Source: Mergibacter septicus
GTDB taxonomy: Bacteria > Pseudomonadota > Gammaproteobacteria > Enterobacterales > Pasteurellaceae
Direction of reading: 5' to 3'
Assembly (NCBI RefSeq): GCF_003265225.1
Contig: NZ_CP022013.1
Span: 653,001-717,000, forward strand
Length of the DNA stretch: 64,000 bases
Part shown: positions 1,074 to 26,669 of the stretch, one piece after another
Position numbering within the stretch: the first letter of the stretch is position 1
How the letters are laid out: every line of letters starts with the position of its first letter
Notes under the pieces: model-generated
The model's input: the letters and a program-made list of their open reading frames with translations, nothing else
Told to the model about the DNA's origin: nothing
Databases searched by the model: none
Program-made: the position numbers and the translations under genes

Positions 1074-1117
1074 TTTAAACCACTTTAAAATCAATTTAAA
1101 GTCAATTTTATTATACT
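1074..1117 (+). promoter_or_regulatory. Candidate late promoter P1 (lysis)
   Basis: Dyad TTTAAA-CCAC-TTTAAA at 1074-1089, further phased TTTAAA at 1095 and TTTTA at 1106, and a -10-like TATACT at 1112-1117, exactly 38 bp after the dyad start. Four other prophage sites have the same geometry. No -35 box is seen, as in Mor/C-dependent promoters of Mu. Transcription would start near 1124. Confidence 0.65.
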
Positions 1118-1155
1118 CCAGTTATTAATAATCACTTGATAACTGGAGTTTTTTT
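1115..1155 (+). terminator. Terminator-like hairpin covering the lysin ribosome binding site
   Basis: Perfect 11-bp stem ACTCCAGTTAT (1115-1125) with ATAACTGGAGT (1139-1149), followed by seven T directly abutting the lysin ATG. The 3' arm contains the GGAG that must serve as the lysin ribosome binding site. Read-through RNA would fold, terminate and hide this site. RNA starting near 1124 from P1 would lack most of the 5' arm and leave it open. Confidence 0.7.
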
Positions 1156-1704
1156 ATGCGACAAATCAACAAAATTGTGATCCATTGTGCAGCAACGGCA
1201 AATGGTAAACCACTAGGTAATTCACACCAAACCGCCGCCCAAGTTATTGATAACTGGCACGCTAAACGAGGCTTCAAACGCCAAGAAAACAATCTACATT
1301 TCAATCCAAGATTGCCCCATATCGGCTACCACTTTGTAATCGACACAGACGGCTTAGTTGAAAGTGGTCGAGCAATTAATGAAATCGGAGCTCACGTCAA
1401 AGGACATAATCACAATTCAATCGGTATTTGCCTCATTGGTGGGGTTGGTGTAGGACGAGAAAAAGCCCACGGACGTTACACCGTCGAACAATGGAATAGC
1501 CTTGCAAACCTCTTAAGTAACCTTGCTGAACGTTTCCCTCACGCAGAAATTTATGGACACCGTGATTTATCCCCCGATCTAAACGATGACGGTGTAATTA
1601 CACAAAATGAATGGTTGAAAACCTGCCCAAATTTTGATGTTGCCAGTTGGCTTGACCAATATAACGGCACAGTTAACTACGACCATTTATATACAGAGGG
1701 ATAA
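1156..1704 (+). CDS. Endolysin, N-acetylmuramoyl-L-alanine amidase
   Basis: A 182-residue amidase_2 (T7 lysozyme/PGRP) type enzyme that cleaves the bond between muramic acid and the stem peptide to lyse the cell. Zinc ligands are visible: His in IHCAA (residue 10), His in YGHRDLSPD (about 136) and Cys in KTCPNF (about 156). The core GYHFVIDTDG is also present. No signal peptide is seen, so it would depend on a holin for export. It heads the lysis cassette. Its start is unusual: the only Shine-Dalgarno (GGAG) lies in the arm of a hairpin ending in seven T. Confidence 0.92.
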   Translation: MRQINKIVIHCAATANGKPLGNSHQTAAQVIDNWHAKRGFKRQENNLHFNPRLPHIGYHFVIDTDGLVESGRAINEIGAHVKGHNHNSIGICLIGGVGVGREKAHGRYTVEQWNSLANLLSNLAERFPHAEIYGHRDLSPDLNDDGVITQNEWLKTCPNFDVASWLDQYNGTVNYDHLYTEG

Positions 1705-1706
1705 AT

Positions 1707-1817
1707 ATGAAATATTTTTTTGCTTCAGTTTGCATTGCAGCAGCAGCCTATTTATTAGCAGTAGGAAATAGCTATTGGGGATGGTTTTTATTTATGGGTT
1801 TTTTAGCTGTTTTCTAA
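1707..1817 (+). CDS. Small membrane protein, 36 residues
   Basis: Short ORF starting 3 bases after the lysin stop with AGAGGG before the ATG. It encodes MKYFFASVCIAAAAYLLAVG and a second hydrophobic segment ending in FLAVF, so nearly the whole chain can sit in the membrane. A role in lysis (holin or antiholin) is possible from position and topology only. Another small membrane ORF of the same size class lies after the large terminase gene. Confidence 0.5.
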   Translation: MKYFFASVCIAAAAYLLAVGNSYWGWFLFMGFLAVF

Positions 1818-1835
1818 TACCTGAAAGGAGAAAAC

Positions 1836-2069
1836 ATGAAATTTACTGAATTAATTACAAACGATAGCGGCAGACTTAGCACTACTGCATTTATTCAGTT
1901 TTTTGGTGCTGTATTAATGGCAGGAATATTACTTTATTCCGTCTATTTAGATCGAGCTAATGTCAGTGAAATGTTTACCACCTTTGCATTATTTTGTGGA
2001 GGAGGTGTGGCAACAAAAGGCTTTGCTAATGCAATTAACCGTAAACGACAACAAGGAGAAAGTGAATGA
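1836..2069 (+). CDS. DUF2644-type membrane protein, holin candidate
   Basis: A 77-residue protein with two hydrophobic segments (about residues 18-36 and 45-62) and a basic tail. It resembles the DUF2644 proteins found in Mu-like prophages of Pasteurellaceae beside lysins. GAAAGGAG gives a strong ribosome binding site. Its stop overlaps the start of the spanin gene by four bases. A holin role is inferred from size, two membrane segments and position between lysin and spanins. Confidence 0.7.
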   Translation: MKFTELITNDSGRLSTTAFIQFFGAVLMAGILLYSVYLDRANVSEMFTTFALFCGGGVATKGFANAINRKRQQGESE

Positions 2070-2317
2070 TCGGATTAGCTTATTCATGGGGAGCAATTGG
2101 GATTGTAATACTTACAGGCTATTTTTATTTACGCTGTCAAAGTAAAAAAATTGCAGAACAAAAACAACAAATAGAACGTATCAAAGTTGAAGCGAAAGCC
2201 ATTGCAGAGGAAATGGAAAATGCAGAAAAACGTAAGCAAATTGAGCAAGCTAATCAGCGCCTTAATGATGATTCTATTGATAAGCAGTTGCAGTCAAAAA
2301 GTTACTTCCGTGACTAA
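2066..2317 (+). CDS. Rz-like inner-membrane spanin
   Basis: An 83-residue protein with one N-terminal membrane segment (about residues 5-23) followed by a charged helical region rich in Lys, Gln and Glu that should form a coiled coil in the periplasm. This is the usual build of i-spanins, which with an outer-membrane partner disrupt the outer membrane at the end of lysis. The partner gene is nested inside it in another frame. AAGGAG lies before the ATG. Confidence 0.75.
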   Translation: MIGLAYSWGAIGIVILTGYFYLRCQSKKIAEQKQQIERIKVEAKAIAEEMENAEKRKQIEQANQRLNDDSIDKQLQSKSYFRD

Positions 2318-2438
2318 AATCACAGGTTGTCGTGCTTTTGGGCTGATTTATCCGAGCTCAAAAGATACGGTAGAAACCAAACGGCAGGTGCTTAACCATA
2401 ATTTAACTTATGAAAAAGTGTGTCAGGTAGAAAAATAA
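2220..2438 (+). CDS. Rz1-like outer-membrane spanin lipoprotein, nested
   Basis: An overlapping gene in the +1 frame relative to the i-spanin. I choose ATG 2220 (72 residues), preceded by AGAGGAAATGGAA; an upstream ATG at 2187 is in frame. The protein has a hydrophobic stretch ending in the lipobox LISSC, then a short mature domain with several cysteines. The nested Rz/Rz1 layout is well known in phages and supports both assignments. Confidence 0.72.
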   Translation: MQKNVSKLSKLISALMMILLISSCSQKVTSVTKITGCRAFGLIYPSSKDTVETKRQVLNHNLTYEKVCQVEK

Positions 2439-2644
2439 TGGATTTGGCAGATATTACCCAACAACGTGATGAACAAGCCTACCAACGGTTTTTAGCTCGC
2501 CATAAACCGATACAGGTAGATATTGATACCATAACTGAGCGCTTTTGTGTCGATTGTGGTGAGCTTATTCCAGTAAAAAGAGTGAAAGCCGTACCGCACT
2601 GTTGTCGTTGCATATATTGCCAAGAAAAGGTGGAACGAAAATGA
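2438..2644 (+). CDS. TraR/DksA-type zinc finger protein
   Basis: A 68-residue protein with the C4 finger CVDCG...CCRCIYCQ of the TraR/DksA family, whose members bind the secondary channel of RNA polymerase. Only the short C-terminal-like form is present, as in Mu gp and P2 orf82-like proteins. The ATG at 2438 overlaps the spanin stop (TAATG) and fits the family start MDLADI. Its role in this phage is not known; small TraR-like proteins may tune host transcription during growth. Confidence 0.82.
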   Translation: MDLADITQQRDEQAYQRFLARHKPIQVDIDTITERFCVDCGELIPVKRVKAVPHCCRCIYCQEKVERK

Positions 2645-2970
2645 TAGAAGTTTTAGAAATTATTAAACAACACTGGGGCATTATTTTAACTATCGCAGGG
2701 CTATTAGCATCTTTATTTTGGCTAAAAATGGATAGTCGTTATGTCAAAAAAAGTGATTTTAATAAATTGAGTGGTGAGTTATCTGGGACAGTACAGAAAG
2801 TCAGTGAAATTGAAAATGAAATATTACACTTACCGAGTTCAAAAGATGTAACCGATTTACGTCTAGCCGTTGTTGAAATGAAAGGCGAAACAAAAGCCTT
2901 GAGAACTGAAGTAATGGGTTTAACTCATCAAGTACGTTTATTAATTGAAAAGGAAGTAAGCAAACAATGA
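2641..2970 (+). CDS. Mu gp25-like protein (DUF2730)
   Basis: A 109-residue protein with one N-terminal membrane segment (about residues 12-28) and a long helical, coiled-coil-prone remainder. Length and order match the DUF2730 proteins of Mu-like phages, found just before the gp26 and terminase genes. ATG 2641 is chosen because it overlaps the previous stop (ATGA) and AGGTGG lies upstream. Function is unknown. Confidence 0.7.
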   Translation: MIEVLEIIKQHWGIILTIAGLLASLFWLKMDSRYVKKSDFNKLSGELSGTVQKVSEIENEILHLPSSKDVTDLRLAVVEMKGETKALRTEVMGLTHQVRLLIEKEVSKQ

Positions 2971-3263
2971 AAACAAAAGATATTTTTACTCAAGATCAGC
3001 GTCTAGTCATTTTACGCTCATTAGTTGATGCGGGTTATGACGCTAATGAGTCAATCTTAGATGACTGTTTAGCTCTCTATGGACATAACATCAGCCGTGA
3101 TTTAGTGCGTAATCACCTAAATTGGCTAGAAGAAAACGGGCTTGTTCATATTGAACGCTTACAAGGTGGTTTTATGGTCGCAACTATTACTCAACGTGGA
3201 TTTGATGTTGCAAATGGTGAGGCATTTATAGATGGTGTAAAACGTCCTCGCCCAAAAATTTAA
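2967..3263 (+). CDS. Mu gp26-like protein with winged-helix fold
   Basis: A 98-residue protein resembling the gp26 proteins of FluMu/SuMu-type phages, often annotated as ArsR-like. The segment NISRDLVRNHLNWLEENGLVHI reads as a helix-turn-helix with recognition helix and wing. Its ATG overlaps the previous stop by four bases. It precedes the terminase genes; whether it regulates or takes part in packaging is not known. Confidence 0.68.
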   Translation: MKTKDIFTQDQRLVILRSLVDAGYDANESILDDCLALYGHNISRDLVRNHLNWLEENGLVHIERLQGGFMVATITQRGFDVANGEAFIDGVKRPRPKI

Positions 3264-3297
3264 ACGTTTTTTAAACGAAATTTAAGGAGCGTTTAAA
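3259..3297 (+). repeat. Phased TTTAAA array, 4 units at 11 bp
   Basis: TTTAAA or TTTAAG at 3259, 3270, 3281 and 3292, each exactly 11 bp apart, filling the gap before the small terminase gene. The gene's ribosome binding site (AAGGAG) and part of its ATG lie inside the array. Two units are followed by CG (TTTAAACG). Confidence 0.8.
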
Positions 3298-3866
3298 TGA
3301 CCGAAAAAATCAAAAGAGGGCGAGCATCAAAAGTAGATTTATTGCCAGTGAATATCAAAACGCAATTAGCAATGATGTTGCGTGACAAACAGTTTTCACA
3401 AGCAGAAATCTTGGAAGAAATTAATGAGTTAATCCGTGATTGTGGCTTGCCCGAAAGTGCATTATTAAGCAAAACAGGGCTGAATCGTTATGCAACCAGA
3501 ATGGAAAAAATGGGGGCGAAAATCCGTCAATCCCGTGAAATAGCAGAAATTTGGACGAAGCAATTTGGTGAGGCCCCACAGTCAGACATTGGCAAAATGC
3601 TGATGGAAATTGTGAAAAACATTGCATTTGAAACCTCACTGGGAATGAGTGAAGACGGCACGGCTGATCCAAAATCTATTGCCTTACTTTCTGCCGCTGT
3701 ACAACGCTTAGAACAAGCAGAAAGTTTGAGTTTTAAACGTGAACAGGCTATCCGACAAGAAACAATTAAGCGTGCAGCGGAAGCGGTAGAAGAAGCAGCA
3801 AAAGAAACAGGGGCAAGTATAGAAGACGTGACAAAAATGGTGAAAGCAGTCTATGGTATCGAATAA
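3297..3866 (+). CDS. Small terminase subunit, Mu gp27-like (DUF3486)
   Basis: A 189-residue protein of the DUF3486 family, the DNA-recognition subunit of Mu-type headful packaging. The N-terminus begins with a basic stretch (KIKRGRASKVDLLP) and a predicted HTH region, and the C-terminal half is helical and Glu/Ala rich, suited to ring assembly. It overlaps the large terminase gene by 14 bases, typical of the pair. It is preceded by a phased TTTAAA array that carries its ribosome binding site. Confidence 0.85.
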   Translation: MTEKIKRGRASKVDLLPVNIKTQLAMMLRDKQFSQAEILEEINELIRDCGLPESALLSKTGLNRYATRMEKMGAKIRQSREIAEIWTKQFGEAPQSDIGKMLMEIVKNIAFETSLGMSEDGTADPKSIALLSAAVQRLEQAESLSFKREQAIRQETIKRAAEAVEEAAKETGASIEDVTKMVKAVYGIE

Positions 3867-5160
3867 CACTGTTCTCTGCGACTATCAGAAAAAATGGCTA
3901 CAAGATAACAGCCGTTTCAAAGTGGCAATGTTTGCTAGACAAACAGGTAAAACTTTTACTACTACCCTTGAAATCGTACTAGATTGTTTAAAAGCCGAAG
4001 CTCGTGGCGAGAAAACTCGCTGGGTTATTCTATCTCGAGGAGAACGTCAAGCCAAAGAAGCGATTAACGAAGGGGTAAAAGTCCATCTTAAAGCTATGGG
4101 GATTGTTTGTAAAATTATGGAAGTCCCCTTTAGTCCAACTATCAATGCCTTAGAAGTCATCTTCCCTAATGACTCTAAAATCACCGCATTACCTGCAAAC
4201 CCCGATACCGCAAGGGGATTTTCTGCCAATGTCTTTTTAGATGAATTTGCCTTTCACCAAGATAGCCGAGAAATCTGGAAAGCCCTATTTCCTGTTATTT
4301 CAGCAGGCTGGAAATTACGGGTGGTGAGCACCCCAAATGGTAAGGGCAATAAGTTTTACGAATTGATGACCGACTTGGGAAACACAGAATGGTCACGCCA
4401 TCAAACAGATATTTATCAAGCAGTCGCTGATGGCTTGCCACGTGATATTGAACAGCTTCGCAAGGGCTTGAATGATGAAGATGCTTGGGCACAAGAATTT
4501 GAACTTAAGTGGTTAGACGAAGCCAGTAGCTGGCTCTCTTATGACTTAATTGACAGCGTGGAGCATCCACAAGCAGGAAAACCCGAAAATTATACAGGCA
4601 ATCCTTGCTTTGTAGGAATGGATATCGCTGTAAGGACCAATTTAACCGTGATTTGGGTACTGGAATTAGTGGGTGATGTGTATTGGACACGTGAATTTAC
4701 CACCTTAAAACGCACTAAGCTACGTCATCAATTAGAAGAGTTAAACCGTGTGATGTGCCAATACAATGTGATTGCTTGCAATCTCGACCAAACAGGAATG
4801 GGTGAAAAGATGGTAGAAGATGCCCAATATCAACACGGCAAGCAACGCGTACAAGGGGTGTTATTTAATGTGGCAACCAAACTCAATATGGCAACCATTG
4901 GTAAAAAAGTCTTTGAAGATAAGCAAATCCGTATCCCACAGGGCGATAGCGATTTGCGTGCTGATTTGCATAAGCTCAAAAAAATTACAGGCTCAACAGG
5001 ACAACCGCGCTTTGTGGCTGAAAATGATAGTCAAGGACACGCTGACCGTACGTGGGCGTGTTTTTTAGCCTTGCTTGCGGCTAAAGATGCCGTATTAACG
5101 CCAGTGAAAGCCCATAGCCGAAGACCAAGAACCAGTCGAAAACTCACACAAGGGTATTAA
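3853..5160 (+). CDS. Large terminase subunit, Mu gp28-like
   Basis: A 435-residue packaging motor. Walker A reads FARQTGKT (about residues 28-35), Walker B VFLDEFAF (about 126-133), and a coupling Ser-Thr-Pro follows (VVSTPNGKGN). The C-terminal RNase H-like nuclease shows FVGMDIAVRTN and NLDQTGMG with acidic residues suited for metal binding. It is somewhat shorter than Mu gp28 but both domains look complete. Confidence 0.92.
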   Translation: MVSNNTVLCDYQKKWLQDNSRFKVAMFARQTGKTFTTTLEIVLDCLKAEARGEKTRWVILSRGERQAKEAINEGVKVHLKAMGIVCKIMEVPFSPTINALEVIFPNDSKITALPANPDTARGFSANVFLDEFAFHQDSREIWKALFPVISAGWKLRVVSTPNGKGNKFYELMTDLGNTEWSRHQTDIYQAVADGLPRDIEQLRKGLNDEDAWAQEFELKWLDEASSWLSYDLIDSVEHPQAGKPENYTGNPCFVGMDIAVRTNLTVIWVLELVGDVYWTREFTTLKRTKLRHQLEELNRVMCQYNVIACNLDQTGMGEKMVEDAQYQHGKQRVQGVLFNVATKLNMATIGKKVFEDKQIRIPQGDSDLRADLHKLKKITGSTGQPRFVAENDSQGHADRTWACFLALLAAKDAVLTPVKAHSRRPRTSRKLTQGY

Positions 5161-5273
5161 TGATGATTGCATTTATCACTTTAGTTAGTGCAGCTACGGT
5201 ATTAAATATCTATGACAAACCGTATTGGTGGGTATTTTTATTGCTTGCCACCTTTGTGCATTATGAAAAATAA
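5160..5273 (+). CDS. Small membrane protein, 37 residues
   Basis: Short ORF whose ATG overlaps the terminase stop (TAATG). It encodes two hydrophobic segments separated by NIYDKPYWW, ending HYEK. The region is too tightly packed to be a regulatory gap, and AAGGAAAG for the portal gene follows the stop at once. It resembles the 36-residue ORF after the lysin in size and topology but not clearly in sequence. Function unknown. Confidence 0.5.
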   Translation: MMIAFITLVSAATVLNIYDKPYWWVFLLLATFVHYEK

Positions 5274-5282
5274 GGAAAGCCG

Positions 5283-6740
5283 ATGACACCAAAAAAACAA
5301 GATTTAGTGCGTGAAATTGCCACACGTGCCAGCGCTGTAGATTATTGGGCATTTATGCACTATTTACCCAATCCAGACCCTGTGTTGAAGAAAATGGGCA
5401 AAGATATTGCAGCATACCGTGAAATTTTATCCGATAGCCACGTAGGTGGGTGTGTACGCCGACGTAAAGCTGCAATCAAAGGGCTGGAATGGCGACTTAC
5501 GCCAACAGGTAATAAAAAAGTAGATGAAATTTTGACTACGCTATTTGAACGCTTACCCCTTAATAGCATTATTAACCAAATTTTAGACGCTACACTGTTT
5601 GGTTATCAAGTGTTGGAGGTGATGTGGGCGGAAGAAAATGGCTTGCTATTGCCTACGGAAATAGTCGGCAAGCCGCAAGAATGGTTCATGTTTAGTGAAG
5701 AAAATAAACTTTTACTTCGCAATAAAAAAGAACACGATGGCAAGCCTGCACCTGAAATGAAGTTTTTACTGGCTACGCAACAGGCAGATTATATCAACCC
5801 TTATGGGCGTGCAGATTTGGCACTATGCTTTTGGGCAGCAACTTTTAAAAAAGGTGGATTAAAATTTTGGCTTCAGTTTGTCGAAAAATATGGTACACCT
5901 TGGCTCATTGGTAAACACCCAAGGCAAACCCAACCACACGAAATTGAAGACTTGCTAGATAGCATGGAAAAAATGCTGGGAACTGCGGTTGCGGCTATCC
6001 CGAATGATAGTACCGTTGAGCTAGTAGAAAGCAGCAGCAAAGGTGGCTCATCACAAGTCTTTGATGATTTTCTACGTTATTGTAAATCTGAAATTGCGAT
6101 TGCTATTTTGGGACAAAACCAAACTACTGAAGCGGAAGCCAATCGTGCGAGTGCGACAGCAGGTCTTGAAGTGGCAAAAGCTATTCGGGATGAAGATGCC
6201 GCGATTGTCAAAGACTGTTTTAACCAACTTTTAAACTGGGTTTGCAAACTCAATTTTAATTTAGAAAAATACCCCACTTTTGAACTCTTTGAGCAAGAAA
6301 GTATTGATAAATTGCAAGCCGAACGTGATCAGTTACTCGCTAATATAGGGGTGCAATTTACCGAGCAATATTTAGTCCGTACTTATGGATTTGAGCAAGG
6401 TGATATTACGTTAGTTTCAAAACCAAATGAGGAACAAAAATCTACCGAATTTAATGAGTCTATGTCATCAATCCCTCGTAATATCGCTGATAGTATTGTT
6501 GAGCAACTAGAAATTGAAGCAGAAAGTCATGTGGATAATTGGTTACAGGCAATACAAGATAGACTGGCATCAGCTGAAAGCCTTGAGGATTTTCGCACTC
6601 AATTAGACAGCCTTATCCCAGAACTTGATTTTAGCGAATACGCCCAAGTAATGGCGTGGGCATCGACCAGTGCGGAGCTTGCTGGACGCTTTAGCGTTGC
6701 TCAAGAAAATCAGCAAAAAATTAACAAAAAGGAACGCTAA
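5283..6740 (+). CDS. Portal protein, Mu gp29-like (DUF935)
   Basis: A 485-residue protein of the DUF935 family, the portal ring at the head vertex through which DNA is packaged. It fits the family in length, in order between terminase and gp30, and in segments such as GYQVLEVMW and the conserved region around ILGQNQTTEAEANRASA. The last 90 residues are acidic and helical. Its stop is followed directly by the gp30 start. Confidence 0.88.
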   Translation: MTPKKQDLVREIATRASAVDYWAFMHYLPNPDPVLKKMGKDIAAYREILSDSHVGGCVRRRKAAIKGLEWRLTPTGNKKVDEILTTLFERLPLNSIINQILDATLFGYQVLEVMWAEENGLLLPTEIVGKPQEWFMFSEENKLLLRNKKEHDGKPAPEMKFLLATQQADYINPYGRADLALCFWAATFKKGGLKFWLQFVEKYGTPWLIGKHPRQTQPHEIEDLLDSMEKMLGTAVAAIPNDSTVELVESSSKGGSSQVFDDFLRYCKSEIAIAILGQNQTTEAEANRASATAGLEVAKAIRDEDAAIVKDCFNQLLNWVCKLNFNLEKYPTFELFEQESIDKLQAERDQLLANIGVQFTEQYLVRTYGFEQGDITLVSKPNEEQKSTEFNESMSSIPRNIADSIVEQLEIEAESHVDNWLQAIQDRLASAESLEDFRTQLDSLIPELDFSEYAQVMAWASTSAELAGRFSVAQENQQKINKKER

Positions 6741-8024: not shown

Positions 8025-8025
8025 T

Positions 8026-8105: not shown

Positions 8106-8106
8106 C

Positions 8107-8727: not shown

Positions 8728-8758
8728 TTTAAGTAGGGTGATTCATTATCTAAAAAAA

Positions 8759-8872
8759 TTTAAACGCTATTAAACGCATTTAAACGTCTTTTAAACGATT
8801 TGTAAAATAACATATCGACCAAATTTTAAAAATCCCCCAAAAAATCTTTAAACCACTTTAAAATCTTTTTTA
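8759..8872 (+). repeat. Long phased TTTAAA array before the head protease
   Basis: TTTAAA or ATTAAA at 8759, 8769, 8779 and 8790, three of them followed by CG, then TTTAAA at 8825, 8847 and 8857 and TTTTA at 8868. The distances are 10, 10, 11, 35, 22, 10 and 11 bp; several are whole turns of the helix. The last part forms promoter P2. Confidence 0.75.
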
Positions 8873-8890
8873 TTTCTCTTTCGGTAATCT
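8847..8890 (+). promoter_or_regulatory. Candidate late promoter P2 (head protease)
   Basis: Dyad TTTAAA-CCAC-TTTAAA at 8847-8862 and -10-like TAATCT at 8885-8890, exactly 38 bp from the dyad start. Position before gene I equals that of PI in Mu. Confidence 0.65.
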
Positions 8891-8920
8891 ATCAGTGTTT
8901 TAGCAATCAAGGACACTGAT

Positions 8921-10027
8921 ATGACCGTTATTGATATTTTTCGTGCAGGGCGTCGCCATGATGCCAATGGTAACTTAGTAGAGATTACTACTGCGTCGTT
9001 GCAGCAGGCAATTGATGCCTATGATCCACAATTTCACGAGTCCCCCGTGGTGATCGGACACCCTAAAGACAATCACCCTGCTTATGCGTGGGTGAAAGGC
9101 TTACAGCTTAACGGGGATACGTTACAAGCAGAACTTACTCAGATTGATCCTGACTTTGCCGAAATGGTACAGAACGGACGATTTAAAAAGGTGTCCGCGT
9201 CCTTTTATTTACCTGATAGTCCCAATAACCCCGTCGCAGGCAAGTTGTATTTACGCCACGTAGGTTTTCTTGGTGCTGTGCCACCTGCGGTAAAAGGTTT
9301 GCGTAATCCTGAATTTAGCGAAGAAGAACAAGGCATCGTTGAGTTTAGCGATTGGGCACAATCAAGCCTTTGGCGGCGACTAAGGGATTGGGTGATTGGT
9401 AAGTATGGACAGGATGAGGCGGATAAAGCCCTGCCTGATTATTTAGTGAGTTCGGTGCAAGAAGAAAGTATCCGTGGGGAATATCGCCATACTGATGCCC
9501 TTGTCCCTGACTTTAACGAAAACAATGCACAATCAGAAGGAGACCCCACAATGAGTGCAGAAGAAAAAGCTGAGCTTGACCGCCTACGTCAAGAAAATGA
9601 GCAACTAAAAGCGATACAAGCCAAAGTGGAAGCAGAAAAAGCCGAAGCAGAGCTTAACTCAGCCAAAGCCGAGAATGCGAGCTTTGCGGAAGCCTTAATT
9701 TCGGAAGGCAAACTTGCCCCGAAAAATAAAGACAAGGTGGTGTCAATGCTCAATGCAATGACAGTACAAGCAAAAGGTGGTGTTGTGGAATTTGAAGAAG
9801 GTGAAAGCCTTGTTCAGCAATTTAAAACCTACCTTAAAGAGCAGCCGAAAGTGGTGGAATTTGAGGAGGTAGCAACCAAAGACAAAGCTGTACCGCCTGC
9901 TGATGAAACAGTGGACTATGCTGAAGGTACAAGCCCAGCCAGCATTGATGCGGATAAACGCATTCGCGCCTATATGGGTGAGCACAATGTGGATTACACC
10001 ACCGCATTTAATGCGTTATTTAACTAA
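8921..10027 (+). CDS. Head maturation protease with C-terminal scaffold, Mu gpI-like (gp32)
   Basis: A 368-residue protein. The N-terminal part (to about residue 150) matches Mu-type prohead protease, with VVIGHPKDNHPAYAWVKGL and FKKVSASFYLP; the His and Ser in these segments are the likely catalytic residues. The C-terminal part from about 210 is a Glu/Ala/Lys-rich coiled coil acting as scaffold. An internal in-frame start makes the scaffold alone. It starts the capsid segment after a terminator and promoter P2. Confidence 0.85.
   Translation: MTVIDIFRAGRRHDANGNLVEITTASLQQAIDAYDPQFHESPVVIGHPKDNHPAYAWVKGLQLNGDTLQAELTQIDPDFAEMVQNGRFKKVSASFYLPDSPNNPVAGKLYLRHVGFLGAVPPAVKGLRNPEFSEEEQGIVEFSDWAQSSLWRRLRDWVIGKYGQDEADKALPDYLVSSVQEESIRGEYRHTDALVPDFNENNAQSEGDPTMSAEEKAELDRLRQENEQLKAIQAKVEAEKAEAELNSAKAENASFAEALISEGKLAPKNKDKVVSMLNAMTVQAKGGVVEFEEGESLVQQFKTYLKEQPKVVEFEEVATKDKAVPPADETVDYAEGTSPASIDADKRIRAYMGEHNVDYTTAFNALFN
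9551..10027 (+). CDS. Internal scaffold protein, Mu gpZ-like
   Basis: In-frame ATG inside the protease gene, preceded by AGAAGGAGACCCCACA, a far better ribosome binding site than chance would give mid-gene. It yields 158 residues starting MSAEEKAELDRLRQENEQLK, a coiled coil. In Mu the scaffold Z is made the same way from the end of gene I. Confidence 0.72.
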   Translation: MSAEEKAELDRLRQENEQLKAIQAKVEAEKAEAELNSAKAENASFAEALISEGKLAPKNKDKVVSMLNAMTVQAKGGVVEFEEGESLVQQFKTYLKEQPKVVEFEEVATKDKAVPPADETVDYAEGTSPASIDADKRIRAYMGEHNVDYTTAFNALFN

Positions 10028-14143: not shown

Positions 14144-14149
14144 CCATTC

Positions 14150-14193
14150 TTTAAACAAGTTTAAAATCTATTTCAATTCAAATTGATTAAACT
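14150..14193 (+). promoter_or_regulatory. Candidate late promoter P3 (tail assembly)
   Basis: Dyad TTTAAA-CAAG-TTTAAA at 14150-14165 and -10-like TAAACT at 14188-14193, exactly 38 bp from the dyad start. It stands in the gap between tube and chaperone genes. Confidence 0.62.
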
Positions 14194-19884: not shown

Positions 19885-20497
19885 TTTATGTTCCCATAAT
19901 TTTTCAGCGACTTATCAAGAAGGGATTATTAGTCAAATCGATCCTAAAACACACAAAGTACGTTGTGTGTTACCTGCATTAGATAACTTAGAAACGGCGT
20001 GGCTTTCTTATCTTACTCCCAATGCAGGCGGTAATCAGTTTTATTGTCTGCCCGACGTAGGCGCATTGGTCGCAATACTCCTCGATGCACGCGGTGAGGG
20101 CGGTTGTGTGTTAGGAGCAATTTATAACCAACAAGATCCTGTGCCTGTGGCAGACAGTGAGGTGTTTATGCTCAAATTTAAAAATGGCACAATCATCTCA
20201 CACAATCGCGCAACAGGTGATGTGGTAATTGATGCGGTGGGAACGGTATTAGTCAAATCCCCTAGCCTAATCACGCTTGATTGCTCGGAGACAAAAACCA
20301 CAGGCAACTTGCTTGTAGAAGGCTCATTAACCTACATGCAAGGCATGACGGGTAACGGCGGTTCTGGTGGTACAACGGCGGTGATCAATGGCTCACTTAA
20401 AACACAAGGTGGTGATATTACAGCCGATAATATCAGTCTGAAAAAACACGTGCATACTGAGCAAGGCGACGGTAATGATACAAGTGTCGCCAAATAA
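19874..20497 (+). CDS. Baseplate spike, P2 gpV-like
   Basis: A 207-residue spike protein. The N-terminal OB-fold part has GIISQIDPKTHKVRCVLP and YCLPDVGALVAILLD; the middle is a repetitive beta region (FKNGTIISHNRATGDVVID); and the end reads KKHVHTEQGDG, where the HxH pair matches the iron-binding tip of P2 V. ATG 19874 follows GGAGAGAAAGCGA; a longer ORF start is less likely. Confidence 0.88.
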   Translation: MLTNLCSHNFSATYQEGIISQIDPKTHKVRCVLPALDNLETAWLSYLTPNAGGNQFYCLPDVGALVAILLDARGEGGCVLGAIYNQQDPVPVADSEVFMLKFKNGTIISHNRATGDVVIDAVGTVLVKSPSLITLDCSETKTTGNLLVEGSLTYMQGMTGNGGSGGTTAVINGSLKTQGGDITADNISLKKHVHTEQGDGNDTSVAK

Positions 20498-20502
20498 AAA
20501 TC

Positions 20503-20546
20503 TTTAAACTACTTTAAAATCAATTTCCTTTCTTGTCCTGTAATAT
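20503..20546 (+). promoter_or_regulatory. Candidate late promoter P4 (baseplate)
   Basis: Dyad TTTAAA-CTAC-TTTAAA at 20503-20518 and -10-like TAATAT at 20541-20546, exactly 38 bp from the dyad start, with a transcription start expected about at the W start codon. Confidence 0.6.
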
Positions 20547-20553
20547 CAGGGCT

Positions 20554-20922
20554 ATGAATACACATACTCACTTAACGACACATTGGCAACTTGCCCCGAA
20601 TAATGAAACACAATCTATTATTCAGGGTATTGAAGACATTCATCTTTGTATTGCCAACATTCTCAATACCATAAAAGGCAGTGATATTTTACGTCCTGAT
20701 TTTGGCAGTGATCATTTTCAATATCTTGACCAGCCTGAAGATATTGCTATTCCAAATATCGTCCGAGAAATTGTCTTAGCATTACAAACTTGGGAAAAAC
20801 GTATTCAGATTGAAAATATCCGTATCACAGGTACCGCTCCCCATTTTTACTTTATGCTGGAATGGGTTGTAACCGATGATGTTTCTCAACAACTATACAT
20901 TACAGAAATCAAGGCTAGTTAA
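20554..20922 (+). CDS. Baseplate wedge protein, P2 gpW-like (gp25 family)
   Basis: A 122-residue protein of the T4 gp25/P2 W family. The conserved part is IKGSDILRPDFGSDHFQYLDQP, with the usual R-P-x-F-G. ATG 20554 has only AGGG six bases before it. If P4 starts transcription near 20553, the mRNA would be leaderless or nearly so. J follows at once. Confidence 0.85.
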   Translation: MNTHTHLTTHWQLAPNNETQSIIQGIEDIHLCIANILNTIKGSDILRPDFGSDHFQYLDQPEDIAIPNIVREIVLALQTWEKRIQIENIRITGTAPHFYFMLEWVVTDDVSQQLYITEIKAS

Positions 20923-22026
20923 ATGAAACAGATTCAAGCAACTGATGTTAAAATAGTCGATGATGATCTGCAAAAAATCCTTACGGAAACTATTACAGAT
21001 TACGAAAACCGCACGGGTAAAACCCTGCAACCCGCTCATATTGAACGTTCTATTATTCAAACTTATGCCTACCGTGAATTTTTAGTACGTAAAGGTATTA
21101 ATGAAGCGTTTTTACAAACATTTCCACAATTTGCAACAGGGCTAGCATTAGATCTGTGTGGAGAGATTATTGGTTGTCATCGCCTAGAAAATCAAGCTGC
21201 TCGTTGTCTTATTCGTTTTAGTCTTAACGGTGAACATGATGATCTCACTATTGAAAAAGGGACAAAAGTTTTTGCCACTGATACTTTATACTTTTCGACC
21301 CTTACAACGGTTAAAATTGCACGCAATCAACAATATACTGATGTTGAAGCTATCGCTAATTTAACAGGAGAAATTGGTAATGATTGGCAAATTGGACAAG
21401 TAAAAAAACTTGTCAATGTTAATCCAGCTTTAACCGCGAGTAATTTAGATGTAAGTTCAGGTGGAATTATTACAGAATCTGATGATGATTATCGTAAACG
21501 TATTTTACTTGCTCCTGAAGCATTAACAACCTGTGGTTCTATCGGGGCTTATACTTATCACACCTTTAGTGTCTCTCCCTCTATTGCCGATGTCGTTATT
21601 TCAACACCAATTGCTGGTACAGTACAAATCACAGTCTTAACCAAAAATGGTTTACCTTCAGCGAGTTTATTAAAACAAATTAAACAAGCATTAAATGCTG
21701 AAAATGTTCGTCCTCTTTGCGATAACGTTGAGGTTGTTGCACCAGAAAAAATCAATTATCAAATTAACGCCCGTTTAGATTTATTTTCAGGTTTTATCGC
21801 ACAAGATGTTCTTGTTCGAGCAAATCTTGCGATTCGCCATTATCTATCTAATCGTAGTAAAAAATTGGGTATTGATATTATTCCACTTGAAATTCAAAGC
21901 ATTTTAAAAGTTGAAGGCGTCTATAACGTGCATTTAACGTCTCCTGCCTTAATTGAAGTCGCCTCAAACCGATGGGCGGAATGTAGTGAGGTTCAAATTA
22001 GTTTAGGAGAGGTAAAAAATGGCTAA
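20923..22026 (+). CDS. Baseplate protein, P2 gpJ-like
   Basis: A 367-residue protein of the baseplate J family (T4 gp6-like wedge). Visible features include ARCLIRFSLNGEHDDLTIEKGTKV-type start of the Ig-like part and TESDDDYRKRILLAPEALTTCGS, the family's conserved arginine region. Starts directly after the W stop and overlaps I by 8 bases. Confidence 0.88.
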   Translation: MKQIQATDVKIVDDDLQKILTETITDYENRTGKTLQPAHIERSIIQTYAYREFLVRKGINEAFLQTFPQFATGLALDLCGEIIGCHRLENQAARCLIRFSLNGEHDDLTIEKGTKVFATDTLYFSTLTTVKIARNQQYTDVEAIANLTGEIGNDWQIGQVKKLVNVNPALTASNLDVSSGGIITESDDDYRKRILLAPEALTTCGSIGAYTYHTFSVSPSIADVVISTPIAGTVQITVLTKNGLPSASLLKQIKQALNAENVRPLCDNVEVVAPEKINYQINARLDLFSGFIAQDVLVRANLAIRHYLSNRSKKLGIDIIPLEIQSILKVEGVYNVHLTSPALIEVASNRWAECSEVQISLGEVKNG

Positions 22027-22597
22027 ATTAGTTTATCCAAATATGATTGCCAAAGATAAAAAATTTAGTGCATTAGCCGATTTAGGTTTATCTCTGTATC
22101 AACTAAAACAACATCAACTACTGACTAATTTTATTGATTTAATGCCAACAGAATACCTCTTTTTGCTTGCTGAAAAATGGTCAGTAATAGGCGAAGATGG
22201 ATGGGATTTAGCTGAAAGTGAAACTGCAAAACGCAATTTAATCAAACAAGCCGTTGAATTACATCATTATAAAGGAACACCTTATGCTATTCGCCAAGTT
22301 ATTCGTCAATTAGGGTTTGGTGAAGTAGAAATCATTGAGGGACTAAACAATAAAAAATATAACGGGGAAATTAACTATAGTGGAATTTTTACTCATAACG
22401 CTCCAACAGCATGGGCAAGTTATGTAGTAGTGTTAAGAAAGATTATTACTCGTGATCAAGCACAACAATTGCGACAAATATTACGTTACTTTGCTCCCGC
22501 TCGTTGTCAGTTAGTCGCCCTTGATTATCGTGAAACCGCATTACGTTATAACGCTACGGCTACGTTTAATGGGGAATTTTCTTTTGGTACAGCGTGA
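22019..22597 (+). CDS. Tail protein, P2 gpI-like
   Basis: A 192-residue protein of the P2 I family, which joins fibres to the baseplate. Conserved WDLAESETAKRNLIKQAVELHHYKGTP-type segment is seen at about residues 62-88, followed by a QLGFGEVEIIEG region. Ends shortly before the fibre gene. Confidence 0.85.
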   Translation: MAKLVYPNMIAKDKKFSALADLGLSLYQLKQHQLLTNFIDLMPTEYLFLLAEKWSVIGEDGWDLAESETAKRNLIKQAVELHHYKGTPYAIRQVIRQLGFGEVEIIEGLNNKKYNGEINYSGIFTHNAPTAWASYVVVLRKIITRDQAQQLRQILRYFAPARCQLVALDYRETALRYNATATFNGEFSFGTA

Positions 22598-22636
22598 TGG
22601 CATACCTAATTTTTAATTATAGAAGGAACAGAAAAC

Positions 22637-23761
22637 ATGGCAAATCTTCAAGTTAGTCCCAGCTGGGAAACAGGTATTTATCAAATAGAAACCTCAGATC
22701 CAGTGGTTGGCGGAGAAAACGGCATTGCAAATCGACAAGCAAAACAACTTGCTGCACGTACGCTCTATCTTAAACAACAATTAGAAACACTAGCAAACAA
22801 ACGTGCTAGCACAACACAGATCGGGCAAGTACAATTAACTAATGCAACTGATTCAAACAGTGAAACACTTGCATTAACTGCCAAAGCAGGAAAAACTCTA
22901 GCTGAGCAAATTCTCCAAGTTTCACGTGCTATTCCAACTCAATACACACCCACAGCAGCTACTACAACACAAGCAGGGATAGTACAACTTTCAAATGAAA
23001 CAAACAGCAATGCTGAAAACAAAGCTCCGACGTTGAAAGCTCTAAAAAGCTTAAATACTAAAATTGAGGGCAGAATATTAGATGCTGATTCTTCCCAGAA
23101 TGTACGTCCCTATTCGATACCTGCAAACGGAAAATCCCAGTTTTATAGATCAGCCGGGTATGAAAAACCAAGCGATTTACAACAAGCACATAATTATGGG
23201 TGTGGAATTGCGATTAGAACAGGTGCAACAAATAGTGGATTTGCAGATATTTATATCCCTCACACTGCGAACGGAAATGCTGAATTTTGGGTAAGAAACG
23301 GCTATCAGGGGTTTGCACACAGCAACTGGACTGTTTTTAAGCCACTGCCACCTATAACCTCAGTAGTGAATGATAACTCTGAAAATAAAATCGCAACAGC
23401 AAGGGGCGTTAAAACAGCGTATGACAAAGCTGTTGAAGCATTAAATAAAGCAAATGAAAGCCAATTCACGCAAAATTTAGCACAAAATGGTTGGTGTCGG
23501 ATGCCTAATGGTTTGATTCTGCAATGGGGCTTTCTTTCTAAATCATCATTGAGTGGTTCTTATGCGACAGTAACTTTTCCGATTTCTTTTACAGAAATAT
23601 TTAATATTTCTTTAACTGCAGCTGCTAGGGGAGTCGATGGAGATAATAGTCATTATATTGATACTGGAGTACATAATCTTACAAATCAATCGTTTAGGGT
23701 TTTTTCATGGTGGAATGGCGGAAATTTTGATGGATTTTACTGGACAGCAATCGGGAAATAA
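22637..23761 (+). CDS. Tail fibre protein
   Basis: A 374-residue fibre. The N-terminus (WETGIYQIETSDPVVGGENG) is the part that docks to the baseplate. Repeated segments near 58-120 (TTQIGQVQLTNATDSNSETL and TTQAGIVQLSNETNSNAENK) are phage fibre repeats. The C-terminus is aromatic and Gly/Asn-rich with NGWCRMPNGLILQWG, common to many fibre tips that bind the host. The next gene encodes its assembly partner. Confidence 0.85.
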   Translation: MANLQVSPSWETGIYQIETSDPVVGGENGIANRQAKQLAARTLYLKQQLETLANKRASTTQIGQVQLTNATDSNSETLALTAKAGKTLAEQILQVSRAIPTQYTPTAATTTQAGIVQLSNETNSNAENKAPTLKALKSLNTKIEGRILDADSSQNVRPYSIPANGKSQFYRSAGYEKPSDLQQAHNYGCGIAIRTGATNSGFADIYIPHTANGNAEFWVRNGYQGFAHSNWTVFKPLPPITSVVNDNSENKIATARGVKTAYDKAVEALNKANESQFTQNLAQNGWCRMPNGLILQWGFLSKSSLSGSYATVTFPISFTEIFNISLTAAARGVDGDNSHYIDTGVHNLTNQSFRVFSWWNGGNFDGFYWTAIGK

Positions 23762-23764
23762 AAA

Positions 23765-24352
23765 ATGGATAAGAAGTACATCATTATTTTAGATAAAAAC
23801 GGAAAAAGAATAACATCGTTAGTTATTGGTATTCATGCTGATACGCTAGAAATGTTAATTGAATTTGCAAAGCAAAATTACTCGGATTTCTCTTATATAG
23901 AAGCTGATGAAACATTGCAAAATCAACTGTTAGACCCACAATCAGTTTATCAAAATGGCCAAGTTATTGTGCTTGAAGTTGATAGAGAGGCATTAAAAGC
24001 TGAACAACAAACTCAAATGTGGGAACAAATCAAACAAAAACGCTATCAAAATTGTCGATCTGGTGTCTATGTAAAAAGTGTGGATAAATGGTTTCATTCT
24101 GATGACGCAAGTCGTCAGCAGTACACCTTTATGCGCACGCTCCCAGATTTTCCACCAACACAATGGAAAACGATGGATAACAGCTTTGTCGAGATGACAA
24201 AAGATTTACTAAATGAGTTATCACTCGCAATGTTTGCACACGAGCAAGCGGATTTTGCTAATGCAGAGCGTCATCGCGCAGCAATGTTGGCGGCGGAAAA
24301 CCCGCTAGATTATGACTACAGCACAGGTTGGCAGGAGGTTTTTAATGGCTAA
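23765..24352 (+). CDS. Tail fibre assembly-type protein (DUF4376)
   Basis: A 195-residue protein ending in a DUF4376-like domain (QIKQKRYQNCRSGVYVKSVDKW and WKTMDNSFVEMT). Such proteins follow the fibre gene in Mu-like phages of Pasteurellaceae and are thought to help fibre assembly. Starts three bases after the fibre stop. Confidence 0.72.
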   Translation: MDKKYIIILDKNGKRITSLVIGIHADTLEMLIEFAKQNYSDFSYIEADETLQNQLLDPQSVYQNGQVIVLEVDREALKAEQQTQMWEQIKQKRYQNCRSGVYVKSVDKWFHSDDASRQQYTFMRTLPDFPPTQWKTMDNSFVEMTKDLLNELSLAMFAHEQADFANAERHRAAMLAAENPLDYDYSTGWQEVFNG

Positions 24353-24833
24353 TCAAGTTTATTTAGCCTTGTATAAGGGCAATCGCAGTGGTAAGGGCTT
24401 TGGAGCGCTAAAGGCTCGATTAGGCGATTGGCTGACACGCAAGCTCACCAAGGGCAAATACTCGCATTGTGAGATAGCAATCGAGACCTTTGATAAATGG
24501 GGGCAATACGATTGGCGCAAGCGTTACCAATGCTACTCTAGCTCTACCAGAGATGGTGGTGTGCGCAGCAAGGAGATTGATTTAGATAGTGGCAAATGGG
24601 ATTTAATCCCGCTCAATGGCATCACCGAGCATCAAATTAAACGCTATTTTGAGCAAACCCAAGGCAAACGCTATGACTGGCTTGGGGCGTTAGGTGTGGT
24701 GTTCTTTATCCCACAATCCCGCGACAAATTTTTTTGCAGCGAGTGGTGTGCGAATGCAATGAATGGCGGTGATGAGGGCTGGCGATTTAGCCCAAATCAT
24801 TTAGCCGCAATTTTCAAACAAGGAGCAAAATAA
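24345..24833 (+). CDS. Papain-like (permuted NlpC/P60) protein
   Basis: A 162-residue protein. KYSHCEIAIE (around residue 40) and FFCSEWCANAM (around 128) give the His and Cys expected for a circularly permuted NlpC/P60 enzyme of the YiiX/YebB type. ATG 24345 follows GGCAGGAGG, a near-ideal ribosome binding site, and overlaps the previous gene by 8 bases. Substrate is unknown; cell-wall peptide or thioester cleavage is possible. Confidence 0.7.
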   Translation: MANQVYLALYKGNRSGKGFGALKARLGDWLTRKLTKGKYSHCEIAIETFDKWGQYDWRKRYQCYSSSTRDGGVRSKEIDLDSGKWDLIPLNGITEHQIKRYFEQTQGKRYDWLGALGVVFFIPQSRDKFFCSEWCANAMNGGDEGWRFSPNHLAAIFKQGAK

Positions 24834-24834
24834 A

Positions 24835-25215
24835 ATGAATAAACTAACAAAAGACTATTTAGACAGCTTAGTCGTAAATACTCAGTATGTACATCAAGAT
24901 TTACTGACTATTTGCACCATTACCCTTAAAAATGGTTTTAAACTGGTTGGTACCAGTGCGTGTGCAGATAAGCAAAACTATGACGCCAAGATTGGTGAGC
25001 AAATTGCTTATCAAAATGCCTTTGCAAAACTCTGGGAGCTTGAGGGGTATTTACTCAAACAACGCTTGCACGAGCAATCGCAAGGCTTTGTCACATTACG
25101 CAACGGCAATCAGGCTCAAATTGTTTACACAAGCCCTTTTGGCAAATTGCTTGTGGTTGAGCAAACGGGTGATGAGTTGCCCACAGTACATTGGCATAAT
25201 TCCGATGGCAGTTAA
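24835..25215 (+). CDS. N4 Gp49/Sf6 gene 66 family protein
   Basis: A 126-residue protein. The first 85 residues match the Gp49/Sf6 66 family: LLTICTITLKNGFKLVGTSA, then NYDAKIGEQIAYQNAFAKLW and LEGYLLKQRL. Function of the family is unknown. It ends with a terminator and so closes the late operon. Confidence 0.75.
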   Translation: MNKLTKDYLDSLVVNTQYVHQDLLTICTITLKNGFKLVGTSACADKQNYDAKIGEQIAYQNAFAKLWELEGYLLKQRLHEQSQGFVTLRNGNQAQIVYTSPFGKLLVVEQTGDELPTVHWHNSDGS

Positions 25216-25237
25216 CGTCCGAAAGGGCGTTTTTTTG
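25214..25237 (+). terminator. Terminator of the late tail operon
   Basis: AACGTCC pairs with GGGCGTT around a GAAA loop, followed by seven or more T. It overlaps the stop codon of the Gp49-type gene. Confidence 0.85.
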
Positions 25238-25256
25238 TTTTTTCAGAATATAACTG

Positions 25257-25298
25257 TTGACAAAAATTAATCTGCAGGTTAAATTAAACCTCAAGGTT
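25257..25298 (+). promoter_or_regulatory. Promoter and two operators of the xre-immA unit
   Basis: -35 TTGACA (25257-25262) and -10 TAAATT (25280-25285), 17 bp apart. Two sites of the form AAYCT-NN-AGGTT lie at 25269-25280 and 25287-25298, centres 18 bp apart. One sits between the boxes and one over the start site, as expected for autorepression. Confidence 0.65.
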
Positions 25299-25331
25299 AA
25301 CTTATTGTTAGCGTACTACTAGGAGAAAAAT

Positions 25332-25688
25332 ATGAAAAAGACTAATTTTGGAGAATTTATCAGGGGGTATCGGCGCGCCAATAAGATCCTATTAAAACAA
25401 ATGGCTGACGCTTTAGGCTTTAGTTCTGCATTTTTATCATCTATTGAAAATGGAAATAAGCCAATTCCGCAAGGTATTGAGCAAAAGCTTGTAAATAGCT
25501 TCAGTTTTTCAGAACAGGATAAAGAGCGCTTATTTGAGTCAGTTGATACAACAAGAACACAAAGCACGATTACAATCCCTCAAAACTCATTAGATCAAAT
25601 GATTGTAGGAGCATTTTGTCGGAATTTTAATGAGCTTGATGATACTAAAAAACAAGAATTATTAAATTTATTAAAAGGGGTCAAATAG
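25332..25688 (+). CDS. XRE-family repressor
   Basis: A 118-residue protein. The HTH lies at about residues 20-45 (LKQMADALGFSSAFLSSIENGNKPIP), and the C-terminus is short and helical, suitable for dimer contact. GGAGAAAAAT precedes the ATG. Its promoter carries two palindromic sites likely bound by it. The next gene, an ImmA-type peptidase, overlaps its stop codon, so the pair resembles ImmR-ImmA, where the peptidase cleaves the repressor. Confidence 0.85.
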   Translation: MKKTNFGEFIRGYRRANKILLKQMADALGFSSAFLSSIENGNKPIPQGIEQKLVNSFSFSEQDKERLFESVDTTRTQSTITIPQNSLDQMIVGAFCRNFNELDDTKKQELLNLLKGVK

Positions 25689-26221
25689 TGAGTTCAATTT
25701 TTTATAACGAAGGGTTTTCAGTTAGCCCTATGTCAAAAAAACAAATAGACTCAATTACTCAAGCTATTCGTGAAATAGCTGATAAGTATGGATGGATAGA
25801 TTCTAACGGAGCCGTTGATGTTATATCTCTTTTAGAATTTGGTTACGAAAAATTTCGCGTTATACCGGATCATGAAATGACGGGAACGTTAGGACTAACA
25901 TTACCAACCGGAGAAATTCTTTTAAGGGAAAGTGTCTATAATGGAGCTTGTGATGGTAATGGGCGAGATCGCTTTACAGTTGCTCATGAATTAGCGCACG
26001 GTGTTATACATAAGGAACAGATAGGATTTGCTCGACCAGTGGATAGCAATACTAAAATTTATTGCAATGCTGAATGGCAGGCAAATGAATTTGCAGGGCG
26101 GCTTCTATTACCTGACAGTAGCATCGAGCGTTTTCACTATATGACGGTTTCTGAAATTGCTGATTTGTTTGGGGTAAGCTACGAATGCGCTCAAACAAGA
26201 ATTGCCAAATACGGAAAATAA
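25688..26221 (+). CDS. ImmA/IrrE-family metallopeptidase
   Basis: A 177-residue zinc peptidase with HELAH at about residues 101-105 (FTVAHELAHGVIH) and a downstream EWQANEFAGRLLLP glutamate region typical of COG2856. It starts with GTG overlapping the repressor stop (TAGTG). In related systems (ICEBs1 ImmA) such enzymes inactivate the adjacent repressor when the cell is stressed. The unit sits at the right end of the phage, not at the usual Mu repressor site. Confidence 0.85.
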   Translation: MSSIFYNEGFSVSPMSKKQIDSITQAIREIADKYGWIDSNGAVDVISLLEFGYEKFRVIPDHEMTGTLGLTLPTGEILLRESVYNGACDGNGRDRFTVAHELAHGVIHKEQIGFARPVDSNTKIYCNAEWQANEFAGRLLLPDSSIERFHYMTVSEIADLFGVSYECAQTRIAKYGK

Positions 26222-26294
26222 AAACCCAATCACAAAGACTGGGTTCATAAGATTTAGTAAAGTATTGCAGTACTTTATTAAACAGTAAGCAAAA

Positions 26295-26324
26295 AAATCA
26301 GTTCCACAGGGCGTTACTGATTTT
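26295..26324. terminator. Hairpin after the immA gene
   Basis: AAAATCAGT (26295-26303) pairs with ACTGATTTT (26316-26324). A-run and T-run on both sides allow termination in either direction. A second, weaker hairpin (AACCCA/TGGGTT) lies just after the stop codon near 26225-26246. Confidence 0.6.
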
Positions 26325-26327
26325 CTT

Positions 26328-26339
26328 AACCTGAAGGTG
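26328..26339. promoter_or_regulatory. Third operator-like site
   Basis: AACCT-GA-AGGTG matches the AACCT-NN-AGGTT sites of the xre promoter in 11 of 12 positions if the spacer is ignored. It lies between immA and the next small gene. Confidence 0.5.
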
Positions 26340-26426
26340 ATGCGAATTTTACTCTTTTAGTAGATTTTCGCAAGGATTAAGTTTGTAAAATGAGATATTT
26401 CTCACAAATTACAATAATAAATACGC

Positions 26427-26446
26427 CCTCCTAACAATTAAGGAGG
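26427..26446 (+). promoter_or_regulatory. Hairpin hiding a ribosome binding site
   Basis: CCTCCT (26427-26432) is the exact complement of AGGAGG (26441-26446), the ribosome binding site of the ORF at 26453; loop of eight bases. Confidence 0.55.
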
Positions 26447-26452
26447 CTTCAA

Positions 26453-26596
26453 ATGATATTTGAAACTAACCCTAATGGTGAGCAAGTGGCAGTAATTTTT
26501 ACTCCATACATCACCAAGAAAGGTAAGCGAATTTATCATCCTCACGGCGGTGTTTTCCGCATTGAGATTCCCGCAGATAAATATCGCAACCATTAA
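26453..26596 (+). CDS. Small protein, 47 residues, unknown
   Basis: Starts MIFETNPNGEQVAVIFTPYI and ends in EIPADKYRNH; soluble, beta-like, Pro/Gly/His in the middle (YHPHGGVF). AAGGAGG seven bases before the ATG is the strongest ribosome binding site in this part, but lies in a hairpin. A terminator follows the stop. I do not recognise the family. Confidence 0.6.
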   Translation: MIFETNPNGEQVAVIFTPYITKKGKRIYHPHGGVFRIEIPADKYRNH

Positions 26597-26600
26597 TTTA

Positions 26601-26625
26601 AAGGCTGTCTTATGACAGCCTTTTC
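26601..26625 (+). terminator. Terminator after the 47-residue ORF
   Basis: AAGGCTGTC pairs with GACAGCCTT around TTAT; T-run follows and leads into the dyad of P5. Confidence 0.8.
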
Positions 26626-26669
26626 TTTAAACCTATTTAATACCTCAACCCTCCATTATTTCTTAAAAT
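26626..26669 (+). promoter_or_regulatory. Candidate late promoter P5 (methylase, Pmom position)
   Basis: TTTAAA-CCTA-TTTAAT at 26626-26641 and -10-like TAAAAT at 26664-26669, again 38 bp from the dyad start. The second half-site differs in one base. It stands directly before the DNA-modification gene, as Pmom does in Mu. Confidence 0.55.

Follow-up and report, generated by a model that had tools for sequence, protein, structure and literature searches.

A predicted Mor-driven late regulon with promoter-embedded inverted repeats in a Mu-like prophage of Mergibacter septicus

The window analysed here, a stretch of 64,000 nucleotides of the Mergibacter septicus genome (contig NZ_CP022013.1, positions 653,001 to 717,000), carries a Mu-like prophage with four intact promoters of one design, placed before the genes for the lysin, the head protease, the tail chaperone and the baseplate protein W. 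Each consists of a dyad TTTAAA-N4-TTTAAA, called the operator below, and a −10 hexamer TAnnnT that begins exactly 38 bp downstream of the dyad's first base, and most promoters of this type—here and in related phages—also carry an inverted repeat at the predicted transcription start. We propose, with a probability of roughly 0.75, that these promoters form a late regulon in which the phage activator Mor drives promoters of the type of Mu Pm, while the repeats embedded at the starts silence RNA that reads through from upstream.

Predicted late promoters and their putative activator Mor

Five dyads with their hexamers had been reported for this prophage in the original prediction, and all are present exactly at the positions given there (Table 1; the fifth, P5, is treated separately below). 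The full pattern TTTAAA-N4-TTTAAW-N22-TAnnnT has only seven matches in the whole 1.89-Mb genome, six of which lie in the prophage, one of these being the dyad 20503-20518 read on the opposite strand. A chance origin, raised as a possibility from the outset, was assessed with shuffled prophage sequence: on the + strand of window positions 1-27400 the pattern occurs five times, against none across 1000 dinucleotide-preserving shuffles, and the dyad alone occurs five times against a shuffle mean of 0.09. Conservation reaches beyond the dyad itself (aaWTC-TTTAAA-SCRS-TTTAAA-AKC), and the hexamer has the consensus TAWACT. As originally claimed, there is no −35 box: the sequences at 16-18 bp that fit TTGACA best agree with it at 2.0 of 6 positions on average, below the 2.55 found in shuffled DNA, and an extended −10 (TGn) is present in 1 of 72 sites.

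About 20 related Pasteurellaceae prophages (from Volucribacter, Necropsobacter, Avibacterium and Gallibacterium, together with Pasteurella phage AFS-2018a and a dozen other family members) show the same dyad and spacing before orthologs of the same four genes in nearly all cases. When 62 sites before these orthologs were gathered irrespective of the hexamer, TAnnnT was found at offset 38 in 59 (the next commonest offset accounting for 5 sites), which bears out the fixed spacing, and the three exceptions have CATAAT or GATAAT. The operator is also kept in prophages with a Mor only ~46% identical and with diverged early and late genes. In three phages of E. coli, Klebsiella and Salmonella (PhiKM, KP12 and that of Salmonella Infantis; Mor 35-42% identical) the dyad is related in sequence, the spacing is unchanged and the hexamer is less strict. 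The late regions of the Pseudomonas phage JBD25 were also read, and no clear −10 geometry could be established in them. Most of the matches listed in a scan of viral contigs could not be linked to any of the four genes. In three IMG/VR contigs (L184, L204 and L207) the same type of promoter stands before a further gene, outside the four known here, whose product starts with MSLIHLIVID or MALTHLIVID. A search of the literature, largely without subscription papers, found no description of these operators or of the repeats.

The protein encoded at 146-508 matches the Mor family of Pfam with an E value of 5e-38 (129.8 bits, curated cut-off 24.9), its nearest solved structures are Mu Mor (1rr7, E 5e-12) and Mu C (9l0x), and a search of the whole genome for Mor/C genes returned this single match and hence no C gene. 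It is a member of the Mor/C family by sequence, with dimeric DNA binding and activation of transcription with RNA polymerase predicted. Across 140 family genomes (tallied by hand from tables), 27 have a close Mor, and at least two exact sites are found in 18 of these, compared with 3 of the remaining 113; the pattern has 79 matches in total versus 6 for a reversed control pattern.

Phages with the TTTAAA operator share a recognition-helix motif in Mor, S/T-M/L-Q-W-V/I-Y, whereas SuMu and the Mannheimia phage 3927AP2 have a different recognition helix and a different dyad, TGTGGAA-N4-TTCC, with the −10 box at nearly equal distance (in SuMu, as at Mu Pmom, our reading of the sequences puts the dyad centre farther from the −10 by a single base). 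A Klebsiella phage carries TGAAGCCC-type dyads before the same kinds of gene. Since the geometry is nearly constant while the half-site varies with the Mor protein, Mor is most likely the protein that would bind the dyad. In the Klebsiella phage ST405-OXA48phi1.1 (L129) we also observed the operator CCACTGAAGCCCNTCAA upstream of 1348, 10115 and 21801, before lys, I and gp46, and at I a repeat ACGCCG/CGGCGT that surrounds a −10-like TATATT and stops directly upstream of the ATG.

The closest known counterpart is the Mu promoter Pm, where the Mor dyad spans −51 to −36, with its centre at −43.5, and where neither a −35 box nor an extended −10 is present (PMC4390567, PMC4287176). Published primer coordinates, placed on the Mu sequence, locate the Pm dyad as AGTAAAGCCGGTTAAT and its −10 box as TATCCT at −13 to −8, which is 38 bp downstream of where the dyad begins. 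The prophage promoters share with Pm the 16-bp dyad at −51 to −36, the 38-bp distance to the −10, the lack of a −35 box and of an extended −10, a Mor family activator, and half-sites with a TAA-N6-TTA core (TTTAA-N6-TTAAA in the prophage, AGTAA-N6-TTAAT in Mu). They differ in the half-site, TTTAA versus AGTAA/ATTAA, and in their use, Pm being employed once, before C, whereas the prophage repeats the promoter before its late modules. As the operator is Mor-like and lies at the Pm distance, these are, judged by sequence, promoters of the Mu Pm type, with a predicted dependence on Mor and a cascade without C; and as the phage has Mor and no C, Mor would drive all late genes directly.

The original prediction of a late regulon driven by the Mor/C protein is thus supported by the single Mor/C gene, by the Pm geometry and by the association of sites with Mor, and the same geometry upholds its view that the dyad occupies the Mor position in place of a −35 box. 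Its statement that the operator is unlike that of Mu holds in part: the operator does differ from the Mu C site (consensus TTAT-N6-ATAA), to which the TTTAAA half-sites of the prophage do not conform, but it resembles the Mu Mor site in Pm, down to the same 38 bp.

Inverted repeats at the predicted transcription starts

The account given originally was also incomplete, in that inverted repeats spanning the starts had gone unnoticed. Relative to the starts predicted by transferring the Mu Pm start to the prophage (Table 1), the left arm at the promoters of lysin and chaperone genes begins around the second to fourth base of the −10 box and extends approximately to the start. The right arm holds GGAG, mostly followed by T6-7 and the ATG. 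Protease promoters mostly have a right arm that adjoins or overlaps the stretch immediately ahead of the ATG, and at W promoters the −10 box forms the loop, with the right arm ending at the ATG.

For W, the ATG at 20554 is the start codon rather than the TTG at 20533. Counted from where the hexamer begins, the ATG follows after 12 or 13 bases at every W promoter examined, so that a leaderless mRNA is expected for W, and the proposal that P4 starts at or next to the W start codon is well matched by the Pm-derived start, which falls on the A of this ATG.

The repeats fold well in prediction (median z −5.6 for lysin, −5.3 for chaperone and −2.8 for protease promoters), and the four promoter-linked genes rank 1, 2, 5 and 6 among 43 annotated starts in AFS-2018a and 1, 3, 5 and 10 among 27 in PhiKM. 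The predicted probability that the Shine-Dalgarno sequence is unpaired is ~0.00 in read-through RNA versus medians of 0.30 (lysin) and 0.52 (chaperone) in RNA from the gene's own promoter, and pairing of the type found at T4 gene e is accordingly predicted for these two groups and more weakly for the protease group. The two arms covary: own arms pair at 4.64 of 6 positions versus 3.16 for swapped arms at lysin promoters (nominal p at most 1e-5), at 4.91 versus 3.35 at chaperone promoters (p at most 5e-6) and at 5.42 of 7 versus 4.35 at W promoters (p at most 3.5e-5), while slid arms at lysin and chaperone promoters pair at only 1.4 to 2.6. A tally of the stems counts nine G-U pairs versus two A-C mismatches, an excess which fits pairing in the sense RNA.

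We therefore envisage—as a model—four intact sigma70-type promoters without a −35 box, at which a Mor dimer would occupy the 16-bp dyad (roughly −51 to −36) and recruit the host RNA polymerase, as at Mu Pm. Mor made early would act on all late promoters, and the early-middle-late cascade of Mu would be reduced to an early-late one. At most promoters transcription would start in the left arm (at W, the repeat would enclose the −10 and end at the start), with the right arm carrying the Shine-Dalgarno sequence or abutting the AUG. Read-through RNA from upstream would hold both arms, fold and hide the ribosome-binding site, and at the lysin and tail chaperone genes it may in addition be terminated at the T6-7 tract that follows the stem. 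RNA from the gene's own promoter, starting in or just beyond the left arm, would lack most of that arm and so be free for translation. The most economical reading of these data, as a prediction, is that such a promoter shields its module against transcription arriving from upstream. We also consider it fairly probable that most late promoters of Mu-like phages with a single activator serve as insulators as well, that each morphogenetic module responds to its own Mor promoter alone, that W is always leaderless, and that the design outlasts divergence of operator and activator.

Several points weigh against this reading. The protease stems are weaker than the others, several having z near zero, and the window's own chaperone promoter lacks a strong repeat (z +0.99) and does not show the gene e type of pairing, the repeat being strong in its relatives. 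No strong repeat is present at the W promoters of genomes G020 and G126, in SuMu it is clear at lys only and not at I or gp46, and two gene starts of the window, 3297 and 6741, have stems without an operator. The permutation tests on the arms count related phages as independent, so that their p values overstate the case, and the Pm −10 box TATCCT is our own reading of the Mu sequence.

Among the alternatives, the Mor regulon could be right and the repeats mere terminators of the upstream units that overlap the promoters, the hiding of ribosome-binding sites having no role of its own. The T6-7 tracts after lysin and chaperone stems speak for this, as does the terminator-like listing of the P1 repeat with its stem and T7; in the relatives, T6-7 is present in most of these promoters, and the stems are AT-rich, as opposed to the G+C-rich stem of intrinsic terminators. 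Protease and W repeats, however, have no T tract and yet pair just before the AUG, and the W arms covary, and we regard this explanation as unlikely. Still less probable is that another protein, of host or phage, binds the dyad while Mor acts elsewhere: eight Mor-carrying genomes have no exact pattern match, though several carry variants, and this has to be set against the exact Pm geometry, the strong association with Mor and the way in which the operator changes along with the recognition helix of Mor.

An mRNA is known to be stabilised by stem-loops at its 5' end, and a stabilising 5'-terminal hairpin of the late mRNA, transcribed from a start upstream of the left arm, was our first idea. 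It was dropped, since the Pm geometry puts the start inside the left arm and that arm overlaps the conserved −10 box; with no other conserved −10 upstream and the −10 forming the loop at W, it appears very improbable. A role of the repeat at the level of DNA, whether that of a repressor site or of a cruciform that aids melting, could be suggested by its position around the −10 box at W but is hardly credible given that G-U is tolerated more than A-C. A repressor site common to the repeats was excluded, the arm sequences differing between promoters of one phage.

Further repeats were seen beside those at the Mor-type promoters. A strong stem of 17 positions lies at window 3260-3297, directly before the start of the small terminase gene and without a Mor operator, and a nearly symmetric hairpin resembling an intrinsic terminator, listed on the − strand, lies at 532-563, just after mor. 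In Mu (L062), an inverted repeat CTGCTCA/TGAGCAG surrounds the likely PI start upstream of gene I at 9557 and is perhaps a trace of the same design, while at Plys no comparable repeat was seen by eye.

A relic promoter and neighbouring features

The fifth site, P5, had been taken for a mom-like promoter of a DNA methylase gene, a reading that does not hold. The stretch from 26590 matches the lysin promoter region of the related sequence L122 at 89% over 148 bp and the lysin promoter of L087 at 78% over 152 bp, and on this similarity the mom-like interpretation was dropped. The 21 codons of the frame at 26702 are the stub of a lysin and are fused to a methylase fragment, and the methylase frame downstream of the stub has no Pfam match. 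By sequence, P5 is a relic: a lysin promoter displaced from another Mu-like prophage together with the first lysin codons. Window 26590-27371 as a whole, with lysin promoter, stub and methylase fragment, has the appearance of a scar of a second Mu-like prophage.

In Mu, a central strong gyrase site lies between gene G and the protease gene, and the right arm of that site, which contains repeat motifs, is essential. Between the same two genes of the window, at 8749-8800, stands an array of TTTAAACG units spaced ~10 bp apart, and arrays of this type are also found in Necropsobacter, Gallibacterium, AFS-2018a, Avibacterium and G020; by analogy, the array is a candidate equivalent of the Mu site.

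Table 1. Positions in the window of the promoters, their inverted repeats and associated genes
Feature	Position	Strand	Details
P1 (lysis)	1070..1117	+	operator 1074-1089; −10 TATACT 1112-1117; predicted start ~1125; orthologous promoter in ~18 phages
P1 inverted repeat	1115..1149	+	left arm 1115-1128; right arm 1136-1149, containing the Shine-Dalgarno sequence GGAG; T7 and lysin ATG 1156 follow
P2 (head protease)	8843..8890	+	operator 8847-8862; −10 TAATCT 8885-8890; predicted start ~8898
P2 inverted repeat	8890..8921	+	left arm 8890-8901; right arm 8910-8921, abutting protease ATG
P3 (tail chaperone)	14146..14193	+	operator 14150-14165; −10 TAAACT 14188-14193; predicted start ~14201; start codon probably 14238
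P4 (baseplate W)	20499..20546	+	operator 20503-20518; −10 TAATAT 20541-20546; predicted start 20554, the A of the W ATG
P4 inverted repeat	20535..20552	+	GTCCTG-TAATAT-CAGGGC; −10 box as loop; right arm ends just before W ATG
P5, relic lysin promoter	26622..26669	+	operator 26626-26641; −10 TAAAAT 26664-26669
Truncated lysin reading frame	26702..26767	+	MSLSLPITKIVIRLRGATSAY, then stop; methylase fragment 26835-27371 after it
Mor family activator	146..508	+	Pfam PF08765; sole Mor/C gene of the genome

Comparison with known systems

With the late promoters of Mu that depend on C (Plys, PI, PP and Pmom) the prophage shares promoters before the lysis genes and the protease gene I, an activator of the same family and a −10 box without a good −35. 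Mu differs in having C as a separate activator with the site TTAT-N6-ATAA, which at Pmom lies 1 bp further from the −10 (as read from the sequence), and the prophage has promoters before the tail chaperone and W genes in place of those before P and mom.

SuMu and Mannheimia phage 3927AP2 are similar in having Mor but no C and in that mor is immediately followed by lys. Further shared traits are promoters upstream of lys, I and gp46 whose −10 box is in almost the same position, a hairpin with T7 at lys, and the start of the W-like gp46 at hexamer +12. They are set apart by the operator TGTGGAA-N4-TTCC, another Mor helix, repeats seen at lys only and a Mu-type tail. Phages of the SuMu and Mannheimia kind with mor beside lys and no C were described in 2015 as having no known late activator, and experiments on a C-like function were urged (PMC4553209); the regulon proposed here offers an answer to that gap by naming Mor as the putative late activator. 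It also provides Pasteurellaceae phages with a predicted late regulon whose starts are precise to about one base, and the several activator-operator pairs sharing one layout make up a natural series for the study of Mor/C recognition rules.

The predicted silencing has its counterpart in phage T4, where late transcripts of gene e lack the 5' part of an RNA structure and are well translated, and the structure cuts lysozyme synthesis ~100-fold (PMC3014915). At e, soc, 49 and I-TevI, as proposed here, the ribosome-binding site is hidden in long read-through RNA, and transcription from the late promoter begins within the structure and yields RNA that is translated (PMC3014915). The prophage would differ in having this layout at most of its late promoters, those of structural genes included, in using a Mor-activated sigma70 promoter instead of the gp55/gp33/gp45 system of T4, and in the terminator-like tracts at two promoters. 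Both kinds of element are known; what appears to be new is a Pm-type Mor regulon for late genes joined to promoter-embedded silencing of the T4 gene e type at most of its promoters, which suggests that a device known in T4 for the lysozyme gene and few others is a general design for late modules in another group of phages.

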